Below, one piece after another: positions 2,967-9,339 of a stretch of DNA of 50,972 nucleotides. The notes below the pieces were generated by a model. The model was not told the DNA's origin and did no database searches. It worked only from the letters and a program-made list of their open reading frames with translations. Within the stretch, counting starts at the first letter, position 1. Every line of letters begins with the position of its first letter. The position numbers were made by a program, and so were the translations under genes. Source of the stretch: Minwuia sp. (lineage in GTDB: Bacteria; Pseudomonadota; Alphaproteobacteria; Minwuiales; Minwuiaceae); assembly GCA_029210175.1 (NCBI GenBank), contig JARGPL010000036.1, positions 1-50,972 of the forward strand, given 5' to 3'.

Positions 2967-3700
2967 ATGAAAGACACCGAAAGCCTGAACGACAGCAATA
3001 GTGCAGATGCAGACAAGTCAGACGACCTGCGCACCGATATTGCCGAGGTGGTGGCGCTGCGGCGTGCCGCGCTCGACGATGCCAGACCCGCTGCCGTGGC
3101 CAAGCGCCGAAAGACGGGCCACCGTACCGCGCGGGAAAACATCGACGATTTCCTCGACACGGACTCGTTTCCGGAAATCGGTCGACTGACCAAGCCGAAA
3201 CTGGCCCACATGGAAGGCCCCGCCGACGGGCTGGTGATGGGCACGGGTACTGTCGACGGCAACGCCGTGGCGGTCATGTCCGCCGGTCTGCACGGGTCCT
3301 GCTGGCCCTGGCGAATGCGACGATCCCGTTCATGACCGTCGTCCTGCGCAAGGCTTATGGCCTGGGATACTACGTGATGGGGTCGGAGCCGCTGGAACCG
3401 ACGCTGCTGCTTGCCTGGCCCACGGCAGAATTCGGCGGCATGGGGATCGAGGATGCGGTCAACATCATCCACAAACCCGAGCTGGATGCCGCCCCGGACA
3501 AGAAAGCCCACGACCGCCAGCATGCGGAAAAGGTGGCCGAACTGAAAAAGGCCAATACGGCACTGGAAGTCGCGGGCAGATTCGAGTTCGACGATGTCAT
3601 CGACCCGGCTGACACCCGCTGGTATCTGGCCGAGACGCTGAAACGCCTGCCCCCGCCCGAACCGCGCACGCGCAAGAAACACCCGGTGGACGCCATGTAG
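2967..3700 (+). pseudogene. Acyl-CoA carboxylase carboxyltransferase, internally deleted and frameshifted
   Basis: Two frames read as the two ends of one carboxyltransferase (propionyl/acetyl-CoA carboxylase beta type). The first, 2967-3335, has the N-terminal block RRKTGHRTARENIDDFLD and stops resembling the family after VDGNAVAVMS. The second resumes the family at about 3293, reading RVLLALANATIPFMTVVLRK, and continues to 3700 with the C-terminal PTAEFGGMGIEDAVNII region. The two are in different frames (phase 0 and phase 2). About half of a roughly 500-residue enzyme, including the usual central AGG-type acyl-CoA and biotin-site loops, is missing. The simplest reading is an internal deletion of some 250-300 codons with an out-of-frame junction near 3285-3295. 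A functional product is very unlikely. Confidence 0.85.
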
Positions 3701-3758
3701 CCGCGCCCTTTATCTTCATCGTTGCATCGGGCCATTCAACATTCGGACCACGTACCGC

Positions 3759-4487
3759 ATGATCGTTACACGACAGACAGCATTGTTCCTGGATTATGAT
3801 GGAACGCTGGTGGATCTGGCCGCCACGCCGGAGGCTGCGGTGCCCGGGCCGTGCCTGGTTGATCTGCTGCACGATCTCGGTGAAGCACTGGGGGGCGCAC
3901 TGGCCATATTGAGCGGCCGCACCGTCAGTGACCTCGACTCCCTGCTGACCCCCTTGCAACTGACCATCGGCGGCGTGCACGGGGCGGAGGTGCGGGTCGT
4001 CGGCACGACACTGCAACGGCGCGAACCACCCGCAGAACTTTCCGCCGTGCGTCAGGCCGCACACAAGCTGGCGGACGACCACCCTGGCATTCGGGTCGAG
4101 GACAAGGGACCGGCGGTTGCCGTCCACTACCGCGCCAATCCTGATGTCGAGAAGGCCGTCGAAGCAGCCCTGCATGCCGCGCTCGGGCGTACCGATGGCA
4201 TCGAGATGATCCACGGCAAGATGGTGTTCGAGGTCCGTGCCCGTGACATGCACAAGGGGGCGGTGCTGGAACACCTGATGCAGCACCGCCTGTTTCGTGA
4301 CCGCAAGCCGGTGATGATCGGCGATGACCGGACGGACGAAGATGCGTTCGCCAGGGTGATTCAGCTTGGCGGCAAGGCGATAAAGGTCGGTACGGGGCAA
4401 ACGCTGGCGCAGTCCCGCCTGTCCGATCCATCCGACGTGATAACCCACCTGCAAGACGCGCTTGCGACCATGAAGGACCTGAGATGA
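3759..4487 (+). CDS. otsB: Trehalose-6-phosphate phosphatase
   Basis: A 242-residue HAD-superfamily phosphatase that converts trehalose 6-phosphate to trehalose in the cytoplasm. HAD motif I is LDYDGTLVDL with the nucleophile Asp12 and acid/base Asp14. LSGR at 51-54 is motif II in trehalose phosphatases. MIGDDRTDEDAF around 187-197 is motif IV with the Mg-binding aspartates. HGKMVFEVR (about 152-160) is the OtsB substrate-cap segment. Length matches OtsB. It is the first gene of a four-gene operon and overlaps the next gene by ATGA at 4484-4487, so translation is probably coupled. The partner synthase OtsA is two genes downstream. Confidence 0.96.
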   Translation: MIVTRQTALFLDYDGTLVDLAATPEAAVPGPCLVDLLHDLGEALGGALAILSGRTVSDLDSLLTPLQLTIGGVHGAEVRVVGTTLQRREPPAELSAVRQAAHKLADDHPGIRVEDKGPAVAVHYRANPDVEKAVEAALHAALGRTDGIEMIHGKMVFEVRARDMHKGAVLEHLMQHRLFRDRKPVMIGDDRTDEDAFARVIQLGGKAIKVGTGQTLAQSRLSDPSDVITHLQDALATMKDLR

Positions 4488-6295
4488 CCCCTGTGAATGC
4501 CCCGACAGCAAGTCCGTCCCTGAACCTGGGCGTCATCGGCAATTGTGCCTTCAGCGCGCTGATCGATGCGCAAGGGGGCGTCGTCTGGTGCTGTCTGCCC
4601 CGCTATGACAGCAACCCGGTGTTTCATGCGCTGCTGAGCGATGGCAGTCAGGGGGCAAGCGGGCGGTTTGCCATCGATGTGGAGGATTTCGACCACGCGG
4701 AACAGGCCTACGAACCCAACACCGCGATCCTGCGCACCCGCCTGTTCGACACCCGCGGGCGCGGGCTCGAGATCACGGATTTCGCCCCCCGCTTCGAAGC
4801 GCGCGGCCGCTTGTTCCGTCCCCTGACCATGATACGCCGCCTGCGCCCGATCAATGGATCGCCCCGCATCCGTGTCCGGTTGCGCCCGACCCAGGACTGG
4901 GGAACACGGGCCACGGACATCACCCATGGCAGCAACCACATCCGCTTCGTCGGTGATCAGTACACCATGCGCTTCACCACCAGCGCCCCGATCGATTATG
5001 TGCTGAAGGAAACAGCATTCCTGCTCGACAAGCCCATCGCCATGATACTGGGTCCGGACGAAACCCTGACAGACGGGGTCGAGCAGACGGCAGCAGACTT
5101 CCAGGAAAAGACTGCCAGTTACTGGCGCCACTGGACCCGGCGTCTTGCCCTGCCGCTGGAATGGCAGGATGCGGTGATCCGGTCGGCGATCACCCTGAAA
5201 CTCTGCGTTTTCGAGGAGACTGGTGCCATCGTCGCGGCGCTGACGACCAGCATCCCGGAATCTGCAGGGTCCGGGCGCAACTGGGACTACCGGTTCTGCT
5301 GGCTGCGCGACGCGTTCTTCGTCGTCCGTGCCCTCAACACCCTGTCCGAAGTGGCAACCATGGAGGATTACCTGCGTTGGCTGCGCAACGTCGTGGTCGA
5401 TGCCGATGGTGGCCACATGCAGCCGGTGTACGGGATCGGCCTCGAAGCGCAGATCAGCGAACGCATCATCGAAGGCATTCCCGGATACCGCGGCATGGGC
5501 CCGGTTCGGGCGGGCAATCAGGCGCATGAGCATTTTCAGTATGACGTGTTCGGCAATGTCGTGCTTGGTGCGGCTCAGGCATTCTTTGACCGCCGACTGC
5601 TGCGCCCTGCCGACGATGACGACTTCGAGCGTCTGGAGAAGGTGGGTGAACAGGCCTTCCATTTCTACGACAAGCCTGACGCCGGAATGTGGGAACTGCG
5701 CACCCGGGCGAGGGTTCATACATCATCCGCCCTGATGTGCTGGGCCGCTTGCGATCGGCTGGCAAAGATCGCCCGGGAAATCCGGCGGGCGGAGCGAGCT
5801 GACGTCTGGGCCGAACGGGCCAGCCTGATCCGGGACCGCATCCTGGACGAGGCCTGGAGCGAGGAACGCCAGGCCTTTGCCGAGAGTTTCGGCGGTCGCG
5901 ACCTTGATGCATCCGTCCTGCTGATGGCGGAGGTCGGCCTGATCGACCCGATGGATCCGCGTTTCGTCGCCACTGTGGAACGGCTGGAGGAAGCGCTGAC
6001 CGACGGGCCGTACATGCTGCGTTACGAGGCGGATGATGACTTCGGTGCGCCGGAGGTTTCATTCAACATCTGCGCCTTCTGGCGCATCGAAGCCCTGGCC
6101 CGCGTCGGCCAGATGGAGAAAGCGCGGGAGACGTTCGAGGCCATGCTGGCCCTGCGCAATCCGCTTGGCCTGCTGTCGGAAGATACCCACCCGGCGACAG
6201 GGGAGCTTTGGGGCAACTTTCCCCAGACCTACTCGATGGTGGGGATCATCAACTGCGCCCGCTTGCTGAGCACCGGATGGGAGACAAGGATATGA
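4484..6295 (+). CDS. Glycoside hydrolase family 15 (glucoamylase/trehalase-like)
   Basis: A 603-residue GH15 protein without a signal peptide, so cytoplasmic. The N-terminal beta-rich domain (about 1-230) contains the family opening LGVIGNCAFSALID. The (alpha/alpha)6 catalytic domain follows, with NWDYRFCWLRDAFF (about 265-278), GIPGYRGMGPVRAGNQ (about 329-344) and the end motif LLSEDTHPATGELWGNFPQT. GH15 enzymes use a pair of glutamates; candidate residues sit in the GIGLEAQ segment and in LLSED. Family members hydrolyse alpha-glucosidic bonds, and several bacterial and archaeal ones are trehalases. Its place between otsB and otsA, with ATGA overlaps on both sides, makes trehalose or a trehalose-linked glucan the likely substrate, though glucoamylase activity cannot be excluded. 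Confidence 0.92.
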   Translation: MTPVNAPTASPSLNLGVIGNCAFSALIDAQGGVVWCCLPRYDSNPVFHALLSDGSQGASGRFAIDVEDFDHAEQAYEPNTAILRTRLFDTRGRGLEITDFAPRFEARGRLFRPLTMIRRLRPINGSPRIRVRLRPTQDWGTRATDITHGSNHIRFVGDQYTMRFTTSAPIDYVLKETAFLLDKPIAMILGPDETLTDGVEQTAADFQEKTASYWRHWTRRLALPLEWQDAVIRSAITLKLCVFEETGAIVAALTTSIPESAGSGRNWDYRFCWLRDAFFVVRALNTLSEVATMEDYLRWLRNVVVDADGGHMQPVYGIGLEAQISERIIEGIPGYRGMGPVRAGNQAHEHFQYDVFGNVVLGAAQAFFDRRLLRPADDDDFERLEKVGEQAFHFYDKPDAGMWELRTRARVHTSSALMCWAACDRLAKIAREIRRAERADVWAERASLIRDRILDEAWSEERQAFAESFGGRDLDASVLLMAEVGLIDPMDPRFVATVERLEEALTDGPYMLRYEADDDFGAPEVSFNICAFWRIEALARVGQMEKARETFEAMLALRNPLGLLSEDTHPATGELWGNFPQTYSMVGIINCARLLSTGWETRI

Positions 6296-7683
6296 GCCGC
6301 CTGATCGTCGTTTCCAATCGCGTTCAGGACCCGGCCGCAGGACCTGGCGTCGGCGGCCTTGCGGTTGCCCTGGGCGAAGCTCTCAACAGCAGCGGCGGCA
6401 TCTGGGTCGGCTGGAACGGGCATGTCGAAGACGACCCGACGCTGCCTGTCAGCTGGCAGGAAGAAAGATCCGGCAACCTGACCCTGCTGACCACATCCCT
6501 GACGCAGGAAGAGCACCAGGGATACTACCTCGGGTTCGCCAATCGCGTACTCTGGCCCGCATTCCATTACCGGCTCGACCTGGTCGACTACACCAACGCC
6601 CACACCCGTGTTTACGGTGCGGTGAACCGACGGCTGGCGATGAAGATCGCAACGATCCTGAAACCCGACGACCGGATCTGGATCCACGACTATCATCTGA
6701 TCCCGCTCGCGGCGGAACTGAGGGCGGCGGGATGCGGCAATCCCATCGGCTATTTCCAGCACATTCCCCTGCCCCCGCCGAGCATCCTGACCGCTGTCCC
6801 CGAATACAGCTGGCTGGTGCGGGCGCTGTTCGCCTACGACGTGGTCGGTTTCCAGACGGAAACAGATCGCCAGCACCTGATCCAGCAGGTCTGCCAGCAG
6901 GAAAGCGCGGCCACGGTCGACGGTGAATATGTCACCGCGTTCGGGCGATCAACCCGCGTGAAGTCCTATCCCATCGGCATTGATGTGGATCGGTTTGGCG
7001 ACATGGCCCGAACCGCCGACGCGCAGGAGATCATAGACCGTCTGCACCGGCGCAACCTGAACCGGGCGCAGGTCATAGGCGTTGACCGTCTGGACTATTC
7101 CAAGGGGTTGCCGGAGCGGCTGGAATCCGTACGTCGCCTGCTGGAGCTGTATCCGGAGAACCGGGGCGCGATGACCTTCATGCAGATTGCACCAACATCG
7201 CGCGGCGCCGTCGACGCCTATGTCGATCTGCATGAGCGGCTGGATTCCCTGAGCGGAGAGATCAACAGCAAGTTCAGTGACTTTGACTGGACACCGATCC
7301 GATATATCAACCGCCAGTTCCCGCGTGAGACGCTGGCTGCGCTGTATCGCGCCAGCCGGGCGGCGCTGATCACTCCCTTGCGCGACGGCATGAACCTGGT
7401 GGCGCACGAATATGTCGTGGCGCAGGACCCGGAAGACCCGGGCATGCCGGTGCTGTCGCGGTTCGCAGGGGCGGCCGATTACATGAAGGATGCCGTGCTG
7501 ATCAACCCCTACAACATCGATGAAACCGCCATTGCCCTGCAGACAGCCCTGCAGATGCCATTGAAGGAACGCCAGCGCCGCCACGAACGCCTGATGGATG
7601 TGGTCCGGGACCTGGATGTTTCACGCTGGAGCAGCCGGTTCCTGAACGACCTGGGCCAGCTGGTCCGTGCCATCCCGAGCTGA
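6292..7683 (+). CDS. otsA: Alpha,alpha-trehalose-phosphate synthase
   Basis: A 463-residue GT20 enzyme that joins UDP-glucose (or another NDP-glucose) and glucose 6-phosphate into trehalose 6-phosphate. The start is the ATG at 6292, overlapping the preceding TGA as ATGA; longer upstream readings would lie inside the GH15 gene. The opening is RLIVVSNRV. Further markers are GGLAVALGEAL with its Gly-Gly loop, IWIHDYHLIPLAAELR, IGYFQHIPLPPPSI, GVDRLDYSKGLPERL (nucleotide-sugar site) and TPLRDGMNLVAHEYV near the C-terminus. Length fits bacterial OtsA. It is followed after 5 bases by the glucokinase gene. Together with otsB it completes trehalose synthesis in one operon. Confidence 0.97.
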   Translation: MSRLIVVSNRVQDPAAGPGVGGLAVALGEALNSSGGIWVGWNGHVEDDPTLPVSWQEERSGNLTLLTTSLTQEEHQGYYLGFANRVLWPAFHYRLDLVDYTNAHTRVYGAVNRRLAMKIATILKPDDRIWIHDYHLIPLAAELRAAGCGNPIGYFQHIPLPPPSILTAVPEYSWLVRALFAYDVVGFQTETDRQHLIQQVCQQESAATVDGEYVTAFGRSTRVKSYPIGIDVDRFGDMARTADAQEIIDRLHRRNLNRAQVIGVDRLDYSKGLPERLESVRRLLELYPENRGAMTFMQIAPTSRGAVDAYVDLHERLDSLSGEINSKFSDFDWTPIRYINRQFPRETLAALYRASRAALITPLRDGMNLVAHEYVVAQDPEDPGMPVLSRFAGAADYMKDAVLINPYNIDETAIALQTALQMPLKERQRRHERLMDVVRDLDVSRWSSRFLNDLGQLVRAIPS

Positions 7684-7688
7684 CCGGC

Positions 7689-8609
7689 ATGTCAGAGCAG
7701 ATGCGCCTGATTGCGGACATTGGCGGCACCCATGCACGGTTCGCACTGGCAGGGCGCGACGGTGGCCTGCATCACGTGCAGAAGCTTGCGACCGATGCAC
7801 ATGAAACCTTCGAAAGTGCCGCCGTTGCCTATCTGGCGCAGGTGCCAGAAGGCAAAATCACGTCAGCGGCCATCGCAATGGCAGGGCCGGTCCGCGACGG
7901 TGCAGGCAAGCTGGTCAACGGAACCTGGCGGATCAGTGAGGCTGCCATCTCGGCGCTGGTCAGCAGCAGACAGGTGCGCCTGCTCAATGATCTGCAGGCG
8001 GCAGCGCTCGGCACCCGGCACTGCAAGGCGGTACCACTGGAAGCCGGTCGCGGCATCGATCACGAAAGGCCGGTACTTGTCATTGGCATTGGCACGGGCG
8101 TTGGCGGCTGCCTGCTTGTGCCAGGCACCGATGGTTCACGCACAGCAATCGCCACGGAGATCGGGCACGGACTGCTGGCCACCAATGGCCTTCTGGCAAC
8201 AGATCAGGTCTTCAGTGCGGAGGCATTGCTGTCCGGCACCGGCCTGCCAACCCTCCGCAAGCTCACCAGGATTGCGAGCAAGAGTCGCGCAGATCAGACA
8301 GCCCGGACACCGCAGATCATCGATTTTCTGGCATCAGGCGGACAGGAGGCGGCCGAGTTCTCCGCAATCTACGCCCGCCTGTTCGCGCGCTTCGCCGCAA
8401 CAGCGGCACTGACGGTCGGTGCAACCGGGGGTGTCGTGCTCGTCGGGGGCATGGCGGAGCGGTTGTTCCCGTTGTTGCCGACGACGGACCTGATCGAAGC
8501 ATTTCACCTGCCCGGCCCGATGACGGAATGGCTGAAAGCCATCACCATCAATCGGGTGGCAGATGACGCTGTCGCCCTGAAAGGCCTGGCAATGCTGTCC
8601 CTCGACTGA
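7689..8609 (+). CDS. glk: Glucokinase
   Basis: A 306-residue kinase of the bacterial Glk/ROK-related family that phosphorylates glucose with ATP to glucose 6-phosphate. The N-terminal phosphate loop IADIGGTHARFALAG, the central GNVIG-like segment VLVIGIGTGVGGCL (about 118-131) and the C-terminal GATGGVVLVGGMAERLF adenosine motif are all present. EIGHGLLATN is the region that lies by the sugar site. The start ATG at 7689 is 5 bases after otsA, so it is the last gene of the trehalose operon. Glucose released by the GH15 enzyme would be re-phosphorylated here to feed OtsA or central metabolism. An inverted repeat covers its stop codon and that of the convergent trcR gene. Confidence 0.94.
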   Translation: MSEQMRLIADIGGTHARFALAGRDGGLHHVQKLATDAHETFESAAVAYLAQVPEGKITSAAIAMAGPVRDGAGKLVNGTWRISEAAISALVSSRQVRLLNDLQAAALGTRHCKAVPLEAGRGIDHERPVLVIGIGTGVGGCLLVPGTDGSRTAIATEIGHGLLATNGLLATDQVFSAEALLSGTGLPTLRKLTRIASKSRADQTARTPQIIDFLASGGQEAAEFSAIYARLFARFAATAALTVGATGGVVLVGGMAERLFPLLPTTDLIEAFHLPGPMTEWLKAITINRVADDAVALKGLAMLSLD

Positions 8610-8636
8610 CCCGGTCGCCAGGTCCGAGAGGTCAGT
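8605..8636. terminator. Inverted repeat at convergent glk/trcR ends
   Basis: ACTGACC at 8605-8611 and GGTCAGT at 8630-8636 are exact inverted repeats with an 18-base loop. They enclose the two converging stop codons (TGA 8607-8609 plus, TGA on minus 8632-8634). There is no U-tract on either side, so if it ends transcription it is not a textbook intrinsic terminator. It could also be chance. Confidence 0.35.
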
Positions 8637-9339
8637 CAGACTTGCCGAAGACGGAATCGACCGTCGGCTCGTCTTCCTTGGACTCTTCCTTCGGCTTGCC
8701 GATGCCCAGCGCAGCAGACGCAATTGCAGCCTCGGCCGAAAGACGACCAGCCGCGCTCGGCGTGCTGTGGGTGACTTCAGGTGCCGGAATCAGATCAGGC
8801 TTCTCGGCGACCATCTTGCGACGACGGTCCGCAGCCTCGGTGACCAGTGCCGCCAGTTCGGTCTGGGTGCAGATACCCAGGCTGACCGGATCGGTCGGCT
8901 TGATGTTGGTCATGTTCCAGTGGGTGCGTTCACGGATCTTGTTGATCGTGTCCTTCGTCGTACCGAGCAGGCGGCGGATCTGGGCGTCGGTCAGTTCCGG
9001 GTGATGACGCAGGATCCAGGCAATCGCTGCCGGGCGATCCTGACGCTTGGACACCGGGGTGTAGCGCGCACCCTTCTTCTGACGCTGGATCGGGATCGCG
9101 GATTCACGGAGTACAAGGTTCGCGTCCGCGTGCTTTTCGCACCGTTCGATCTCGGCGCGGGTCAACTGGCTGTTGGCAACCGGGTCCAGGCCGACGATGT
9201 TCTGATCGACCTCACCATCAGCCATGCCCTGGATGGCCAGCGGATGCAGGCCACAGAACTCGGCGATCTGGCGAAATGAAAGCATCGTGTTGTCGATCAG
9301 CCATACGGCGGTGGCCTTCGGCATCAGAGGTAATGCCAC
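8632..9339 (-). CDS. trcR: Cell-cycle transcriptional regulator TrcR (DUF1013)
   Basis: A 235-residue protein of the alphaproteobacteria-specific DUF1013 family. The opening MALPLMPKATAVWLIDNT and the block FRQIAEFCGLHPLAIQGMAD are near-invariant family features. The central region holds two helix-turn-helix-like segments, including RPAAIAWILRHHPELTDAQI and RRLLGTTKDTINKIRERTHW, and the tail after about 185 is polar and disordered-looking, rich in Lys, Glu, Ser and Pro. The family includes a cell-cycle regulator in Caulobacter that associates with transcription; binding RNA polymerase or DNA is therefore expected. It is monocistronic, with a 10-bp inverted repeat about 100 bases upstream and a convergent neighbour glk. 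Confidence 0.88.
   Translation of the reverse strand: MALPLMPKATAVWLIDNTMLSFRQIAEFCGLHPLAIQGMADGEVDQNIVGLDPVANSQLTRAEIERCEKHADANLVLRESAIPIQRQKKGARYTPVSKRQDRPAAIAWILRHHPELTDAQIRRLLGTTKDTINKIRERTHWNMTNIKPTDPVSLGICTQTELAALVTEAADRRRKMVAEKPDLIPAPEVTHSTPSAAGRLSAEAAIASAALGIGKPKEESKEDEPTVDSVFGKSD

Follow-up and report, generated by a model that had tools for sequence, protein, structure and literature searches.

The stretch analysed here (the window, to which all coordinates refer) comprises 50,972 nucleotides (nt) of contig JARGPL010000036.1 from Minwuia sp. and carries four consecutive forward-strand (+) genes that combine trehalose synthesis with a glycoside hydrolase of family 15 (GH15) and a glucokinase. 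These are otsB (3759–4487), encoding a trehalose-6-phosphate phosphatase of 242 amino acids; a GH15 hydrolase gene (4484–6295), whose product of 603 amino acids, a TREH_N domain plus an (alpha/alpha)6 catalytic domain, is proposed here to be a cytoplasmic trehalase; otsA (6292–7683), encoding a GT20 trehalose-6-phosphate synthase of 463 amino acids; and glk (7689–8609), encoding a glucokinase of 306 amino acids. The head-to-tail arrangement with two ATGA overlaps and a 5-base gap, described in an earlier note on this DNA, is confirmed by the sequence, the otsB stop and GH15 start sharing 4484–4487 (+), the GH15 stop and otsA start sharing 6292–6295 (+), and positions 7684–7688 separating otsA from glk. 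The open reading frame (ORF) list starts otsA at an upstream TTG (6208); the ATG at 6292, which forms ATGA with the GH15 stop, is preferred here.

Profile searches placed the hydrolase in Glycoside hydrolase family 15 (PF00723, 149.5 bits vs a cut-off of 22) and detected the GH15 trehalase domain TREH_N (PF19291, 41.5 bits vs a cut-off of 23.1). Its NCBIfam ranking was headed by TreH1 (283 bits) and TreH2 (216 bits), followed by oligosaccharide amylase (64 bits) and glucan 1,4-alpha-glucosidase (22 bits), with scores below the equivalog cut-offs of archaeal TreH1 (283 of 820 bits) and TreH2 (215.8 of 1000 bits) and below that of TIGR01535, the glucan 1,4-alpha-glucosidase family (22.1 of 741.9 bits). 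No signal peptide was evident by eye (no prediction program was used), and the product is therefore taken as cytoplasmic. An AlphaFold2 model (mean predicted local distance difference test score, pLDDT, of 94.1) has the two-domain GH15 fold, aligning with glucoamylase 1lf6 (Z 38.8, root-mean-square deviation (rmsd) 2.9, 518 aligned) and glucodextranase 1ug9 (Z 37.2, rmsd 2.9, 521 aligned), and the top solved folds in the PDB comparison were all GH15 enzymes, namely dextran dextrinase (9ju0), glucoamylase, isomaltose glucohydrolase and glucodextranase. A PDB sequence search with the single protein returned nothing at an expectation value (E) of 0.01; profile searches returned glucoamylase, isomaltose glucohydrolase and dextran dextrinase, along with designed repeat proteins taken as chance matches, and no GH15 trehalase was among the matches listed from the sequence and profile searches. 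Fold comparison was dropped as a test of substrate, since the nearest solved folds span several different substrates.

Searches of the window's own genome gave no GH13 match (PF00128, for which a control search found a match in 13 of 14 known genomes), no GH65 match and no GH37 match. By these searches the genome appears to be without a glycogen branching enzyme, TreS, TreY, TreZ or any other known trehalase or trehalose phosphorylase family; it holds one GH15 gene, and the window glk is the sole PF02685 match found. A glucoamylase-like enzyme that trims glycogen or maltodextrin, with its place in the operon reflecting general carbon storage, would suit the presence of 1lf6, 1ug9 and 9ju0 among the nearest folds. 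However, the fold does not discriminate between substrates, the glucoamylase family score is far below its cut-off and the genome has no GH13 match; the last of these led us to drop glucoamylase as the leading interpretation, and we consider it very improbable.

Searches of 289 genomes of the class, in which at most 4 (GH15) or 5 (OtsA) first-look candidates were scored per genome so that extra copies may be missed, matched the GH15 query in 59 genomes and the OtsA query in 69. Sorted by identity, the GH15 genes form a branch A (46–87%, fragments included), which contains the window gene, and a branch B (30–39%). Branch A is present in 50 of the 289 genomes and branch B alone in 9; an OtsA match accompanies branch A in 49 of its 50 genomes, the exception (G068) being a contig-end fragment. 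The two branches split at 100% Shimodaira–Hasegawa-like approximate likelihood-ratio (SH-aLRT) support with 1.74 changes per column between them, in a 129-row tree made by a quick method with midpoint root and without three short fragments; the placement of three branch-B rows on long branches (L110, L090 and L087) is unsure. In branch B, 22 of 23 genes have no OtsA, OtsB or Glk match in the fetched stretch, and the remaining one (L079) lies near a branch-A operon.

The survey of gene order in related genomes that the earlier note had proposed shows that the arrangement recurs. Among 51 fetched branch-A loci (the class draw minus the window, plus G008 and G002, with some loci stopping at contig ends), otsB-GH15-otsA is found in 38, comprising 26 with these three genes and 12 with glk in addition; the others are GH15-otsA-glk (5), GH15-otsA (2), otsA-otsB-GH15 (2), GH15-glk (1) and GH15 alone (3), and otsA stands in the same-strand block in 47 of the 51. 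Named genomes yielded at least 593 relatives of the GH15 gene, and in the best 80 of these the order otsB-GH15-otsA is present in 47 loci (5 of them with glk), otsA is in the same-strand block in 60, and an OtsA match occurs anywhere in the locus in 75. The loci without one are L127, L135, L154, L180 and L193, of which L135 and L193 end within a short distance of GH15. The gene is found in Alpha-, Beta- and Gammaproteobacteria, and the best 80 named relatives are nearly all from Proteobacteria. Pfam matched neither the neighbours of lone GH15 genes that were searched (two from L127 and one from L161) nor four ORFs that follow otsA elsewhere. Across branch-A loci with the genes in the window's order, and with start codons picked mechanically, the joint is exactly −4 in 46 of 90 scored loci for otsB/GH15 and in 48 of 82 for GH15/otsA, and it is ≤30 bases in 21 of 23 for otsA/glk; as these −4 overlaps and short gaps recur across the branch, short joints exceed chance.

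The proposed acid E404 and proposed base E566 (conserved regions 3 and 5) are present in all 58 rows of a branch-A alignment (A2), E404 falls opposite the WE of isomaltose glucohydrolase, and W267, D268, Y269, R270, R275, D276, R342 and N345 do not vary in A2. This conservation makes it hard to credit that the protein hydrolyses little and has as its main role the regulation or scaffolding of OtsA and OtsB, an explanation that the maintained gene order and the frequent exact −4 joints would otherwise suit and that we regard as highly implausible. The residue following E404 is L, F or Y in 38, 15 and 5 rows, respectively (WEL in the window), that following E566 is D, H or G in 52, 5 and 1 rows (SED in the window), and T582-Y583 occurs in 58/58. 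Branch A has its own residues near the proposed active site, D567, T582, Y583, M/L585 and W576, in most or all rows; over 23 genes, branch B has E (22/23), A (22/23) and F (19/23) at the first three of these positions, H at the fourth and mostly L/V at the fifth. One speculative extension, which we hold to be possible but doubtful, is that the ots-linked branch forms a distinct trehalase subfamily whose active site (SED or AEH with TYS, vs mostly AEE with AFSH in branch B) may have been retuned to low affinity, that synthase and hydrolase made together would cap the trehalose pool, and that the gene order and overlaps would serve a co-translational OtsB-GH15-OtsA complex. At the proposed base, AEH replaces SED in L180, L182, L192, L193 and L197, and these five cluster on the tree.

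Among the other three products, OtsB scored above the TIGR00685 equivalog cut-off (155.8 vs 68.05 bits) and matched Trehalose_PPase (PF02358) with 125.5 bits. OtsA belongs to GT20 (PF00982, 382.7 bits vs a cut-off of 32.5), with TIGR02400 its top-ranking family even though the score of 529 bits lies under the equivalog cut-off of 564.85. Glk exceeded the PF02685 cut-off (166.3 vs 22.1 bits) and fell short of the TIGR00749 equivalog cut-off (117.8 of 225.45 bits); its PF02685 score is below the 238–354 bits of four other Glk proteins encoded near branch-A GH15 genes, and it matches ROK too. Ratios of nonsynonymous to synonymous substitution rates (dN/dS) against two congeners were 0.08–0.10 for GH15 and OtsA and 0.24–0.28 for OtsB and Glk, and identity to the window was higher for GH15 than for OtsA in 107 of the 108 loci whose best OtsA match exceeded 40%. 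Given this low dN/dS and an identity above that of OtsA, the GH15 protein is, on these comparisons, under strong purifying selection. Within the genus the outer genes diverge much faster, with identities of 60–65% (otsB) and 58% (glk) vs 86–87% for GH15 and otsA and 94% for TrcR, which Pfam identifies as the gene next after glk.

Five of the nine genomes of the window's order have GH15 together with OtsA, and four have neither. The sister species G006 has TrcR and the carboxyltransferase gene that lies upstream of the block 144 bases apart on one contig; all four genes are missing from this interval, and no GH15 or OtsA match was found elsewhere in this 89% complete genome. G006 is sister to the window's genome with 99% bootstrap support in a tree of TrcR and the next gene, so the simplest history would be one loss of the whole four-gene block, and because all four genes are missing at the same site, the block seems to behave as a unit within the genus. 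The other three genomes without GH15 and OtsA are G003, G007 and G001, where the fetched stretches gave matches to TrcR and to the genes past it and none to the four genes or the other flank, the G001 contig ending soon after TrcR.

The genomic partners of branch A bear on the substrate. Besides the usual OtsA, branch A adjoins a second GT20 (OtsA) type, mostly 30–34% identical to it; the seven tested members of this type matched bifunctional trehalose-phosphate synthase/phosphatase best and then OtsA, all below cut-offs. In Geomobilimonas luticola (L180:7695–9724), the genes after GH15 encode DUF5752 and then TreT, which adds a third type of enzyme that produces trehalose. The TreT reaction does not pass through trehalose-6-phosphate, and since branch A is linked to both OtsA types and to TreT, free trehalose is the likely common factor of its contexts. 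The main substrate might instead be a different alpha-glucoside with a connection to trehalose, such as an imported disaccharide, trehalose-6-phosphate or a trehalose-linked product, an alternative compatible with the branch's own residues around the proposed active site, with the long branch from B, and with the one member, in Methylocaldum (L154), that lies beside MalK-like ABC sugar transporter genes and whose genome yielded no GT20 match. We judge it unlikely, as free trehalose is indicated by the association with two OtsA types and, in one instance, with TreT, and the joint absence of the four genes in G006 fits a closed trehalose loop. In L085:1–2252 and L189:6001–8794 (the latter from Microvirga), glk follows GH15 directly with no otsA between, which ties glk to the hydrolase.

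We therefore favour, with a probability of about 0.78, the interpretation that otsB, GH15, otsA and glk constitute a single operon for a trehalose cycle in the cytoplasm, in which GH15 would act as the trehalase and Glk would recapture the glucose. The most likely role of the GH15 protein, which belongs to a separate branch, is that of a cytoplasmic trehalase; its substrate, together with the single transcript, the low affinity and the physiological role, is what we infer from these comparisons. The earlier note had left its function between the splitting of trehalose, the splitting of a glucan and another role such as trimming a trehalose-linked product, and here the trehalase option with recapture by Glk is the best supported, by the domains, the catalytic glutamates, the lack of GH13, GH37 and GH65, the joint absence in the sister species and the linkage to different trehalose-making enzymes, the glucan option being weakened by the lack of GH13 and the trimming option having gained no positive support. 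In the proposed cycle, OtsA would join UDP-glucose and glucose-6-phosphate to form trehalose-6-phosphate, OtsB would remove the phosphate to give trehalose, GH15 would split free trehalose into two glucose molecules using E404 as acid and E566 as base, and Glk would convert glucose to glucose-6-phosphate, destined for central metabolism or for OtsA again. From the known reactions, a full turn would cost ~3 nucleoside triphosphates (NTP; 2 ATP + 1 UTP), for which reason the hydrolase is probably a low-affinity limiter, acting at a high trehalose pool or once stress ends. The suggestion of low affinity derives solely from the accessible text of a study reporting that GH15 trehalases have Michaelis constants (Km) above those of other trehalase families (PMC10232917).

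Several observations weigh against this interpretation. The published GH15 trehalase motifs are given, in the same accessible text, as WE[F/D/E/V] and [S/G/A]E[E/H], and the window's WEL and SED both break these strings at the third letter (PMC10232917). The TreH1 model is closer to branch B (356–414 bits in five members) than to branch A (283 bits for the window and 277–313 bits for five others). An OtsA match occurs without branch A in 20 genomes of the class, two of these matches being weak and partial, and 8 of the 20 have branch B. The linkage to TreT is a single locus (L180), whose genome has two GT20 genes too, and the block includes glk in just 18 of the 51 loci fetched from the class or family and in 7 of the 80 from named genomes, so that Glk could supply glucose-6-phosphate to OtsA instead of recycling. 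The site is not kept beyond the genus, as G002, from another genus, has the block on a contig other than that of TrcR.

Regulation is a further point of this kind. No sigma-70-like site was found in 3300–8900, in a search covering promoters of that type. The motif of EcfG-type promoters, whose consensus we take to be GGAAC-N16/17-CGTT, occurs upstream of otsB in 9 of 96 loci vs 0.25 expected from mononucleotide shuffles, and is absent before otsB in the window and three congeners. In Bradyrhizobium, according to the accessible text, trehalose synthesis is under general stress control via sigma EcfG, and adding trehalose did not rescue a strain with constitutive expression of TreF, the E. coli trehalase (PMC8092242). 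By analogy with that TreF-expressing strain, a co-expressed trehalase would need a control, and none was seen at the window locus. The operon may serve osmotic or carbon-overflow tuning, as the earlier note had suggested.

Trehalose is a main stress protectant, and the proposed scheme resembles that of E. coli, in which OtsA and OtsB make trehalose and the cytoplasmic trehalase TreF splits it; unlike in the window, TreF is a GH37 enzyme encoded at another locus and glk lies outside the otsBA operon. Known GH15 trehalases (Mycobacterium smegmatis, Thermoplasma, Sulfolobus TreH1/TreH2) share with the window protein the TREH_N and GH15 domains, the two catalytic glutamates and the top NCBIfam matches, whereas the window protein differs in scores far under the TreH1/TreH2 cut-offs, in the third motif letters and in its ots-operon placement. 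Ca. Phaeomarinobacter ectocarpi is likewise an alphaproteobacterium without glycogen, with trehalose synthesis and a GH15 protein assigned as a recycling trehalase; that assignment, too, is a prediction, and the accessible part of the paper mentions no operon or glucokinase (PMC4110880). The surprise expressed in the earlier note at a make-and-break operon does not hold, since the gene order is widespread and GH15 recycling of endogenous trehalose was printed in 2014, as a prediction for this one alphaproteobacterium, in the same accessible part (PMC4110880). In Sulfolobus acidocaldarius, the available text describes a cell that both makes trehalose and has a functional trehalase and that does not grow on trehalose, but the trehalose-6-phosphate synthase (TPS) is of family GT4, not GT20 (PMC7688234). 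Xanthomonas citri has otsB as XAC3209 and otsA as XAC3211, a numbering that leaves one gene between them, and that middle gene is not named in the accessible text (PMC4986880). Xanthomonas codiaei (L186) has otsB-GH15-otsA, as in the window, in a block that, unlike the window's, is without glk.

Two plasmid records, from Paracoccus and Sulfitobacter, call the gene beside otsB just 'glycoside hydrolase family 15 protein'. The literature searched, which left subscription papers largely outside, contained no report in which a GH15 enzyme encoded in an otsB-GH15-otsA operon had been assayed. A GH15 trehalase of Microvirga MC18 is named in a review known here from its accessible text (PMC10969515) and may belong to branch A, as a Microvirga genome (L189) holds a branch-A member. 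The recycling idea is already in print, and the interesting part is a sub-branch apparently without a tested member. Of the 289 class genomes, 18 gave a GH37 match, which was very strong in G190 (E 4e-133), moderate in G243 (E 2e-46) and weaker and partial in the others; set against that one very strong and one moderate match, the 50 of 289 genomes with branch A suggest that it is possibly a main route of trehalose breakdown in the class. Assigning the GH15 function would name a gene seen in three proteobacterial classes and explain the co-encoded make-and-break pair.

A 58-base spacer (3701–3758), in which no sigma-70-like site was seen, separates otsB from the remnant carboxyltransferase gene upstream (PF01039, mmdA-like; 2967–3700, +). 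In the window this gene is disrupted: its two ends survive in different frames, and ~290 residues from the middle are gone. G006 and G004 have an open frame of 519 codons for it, a short piece of it is left in G005, and tblastn gave no match in G008.

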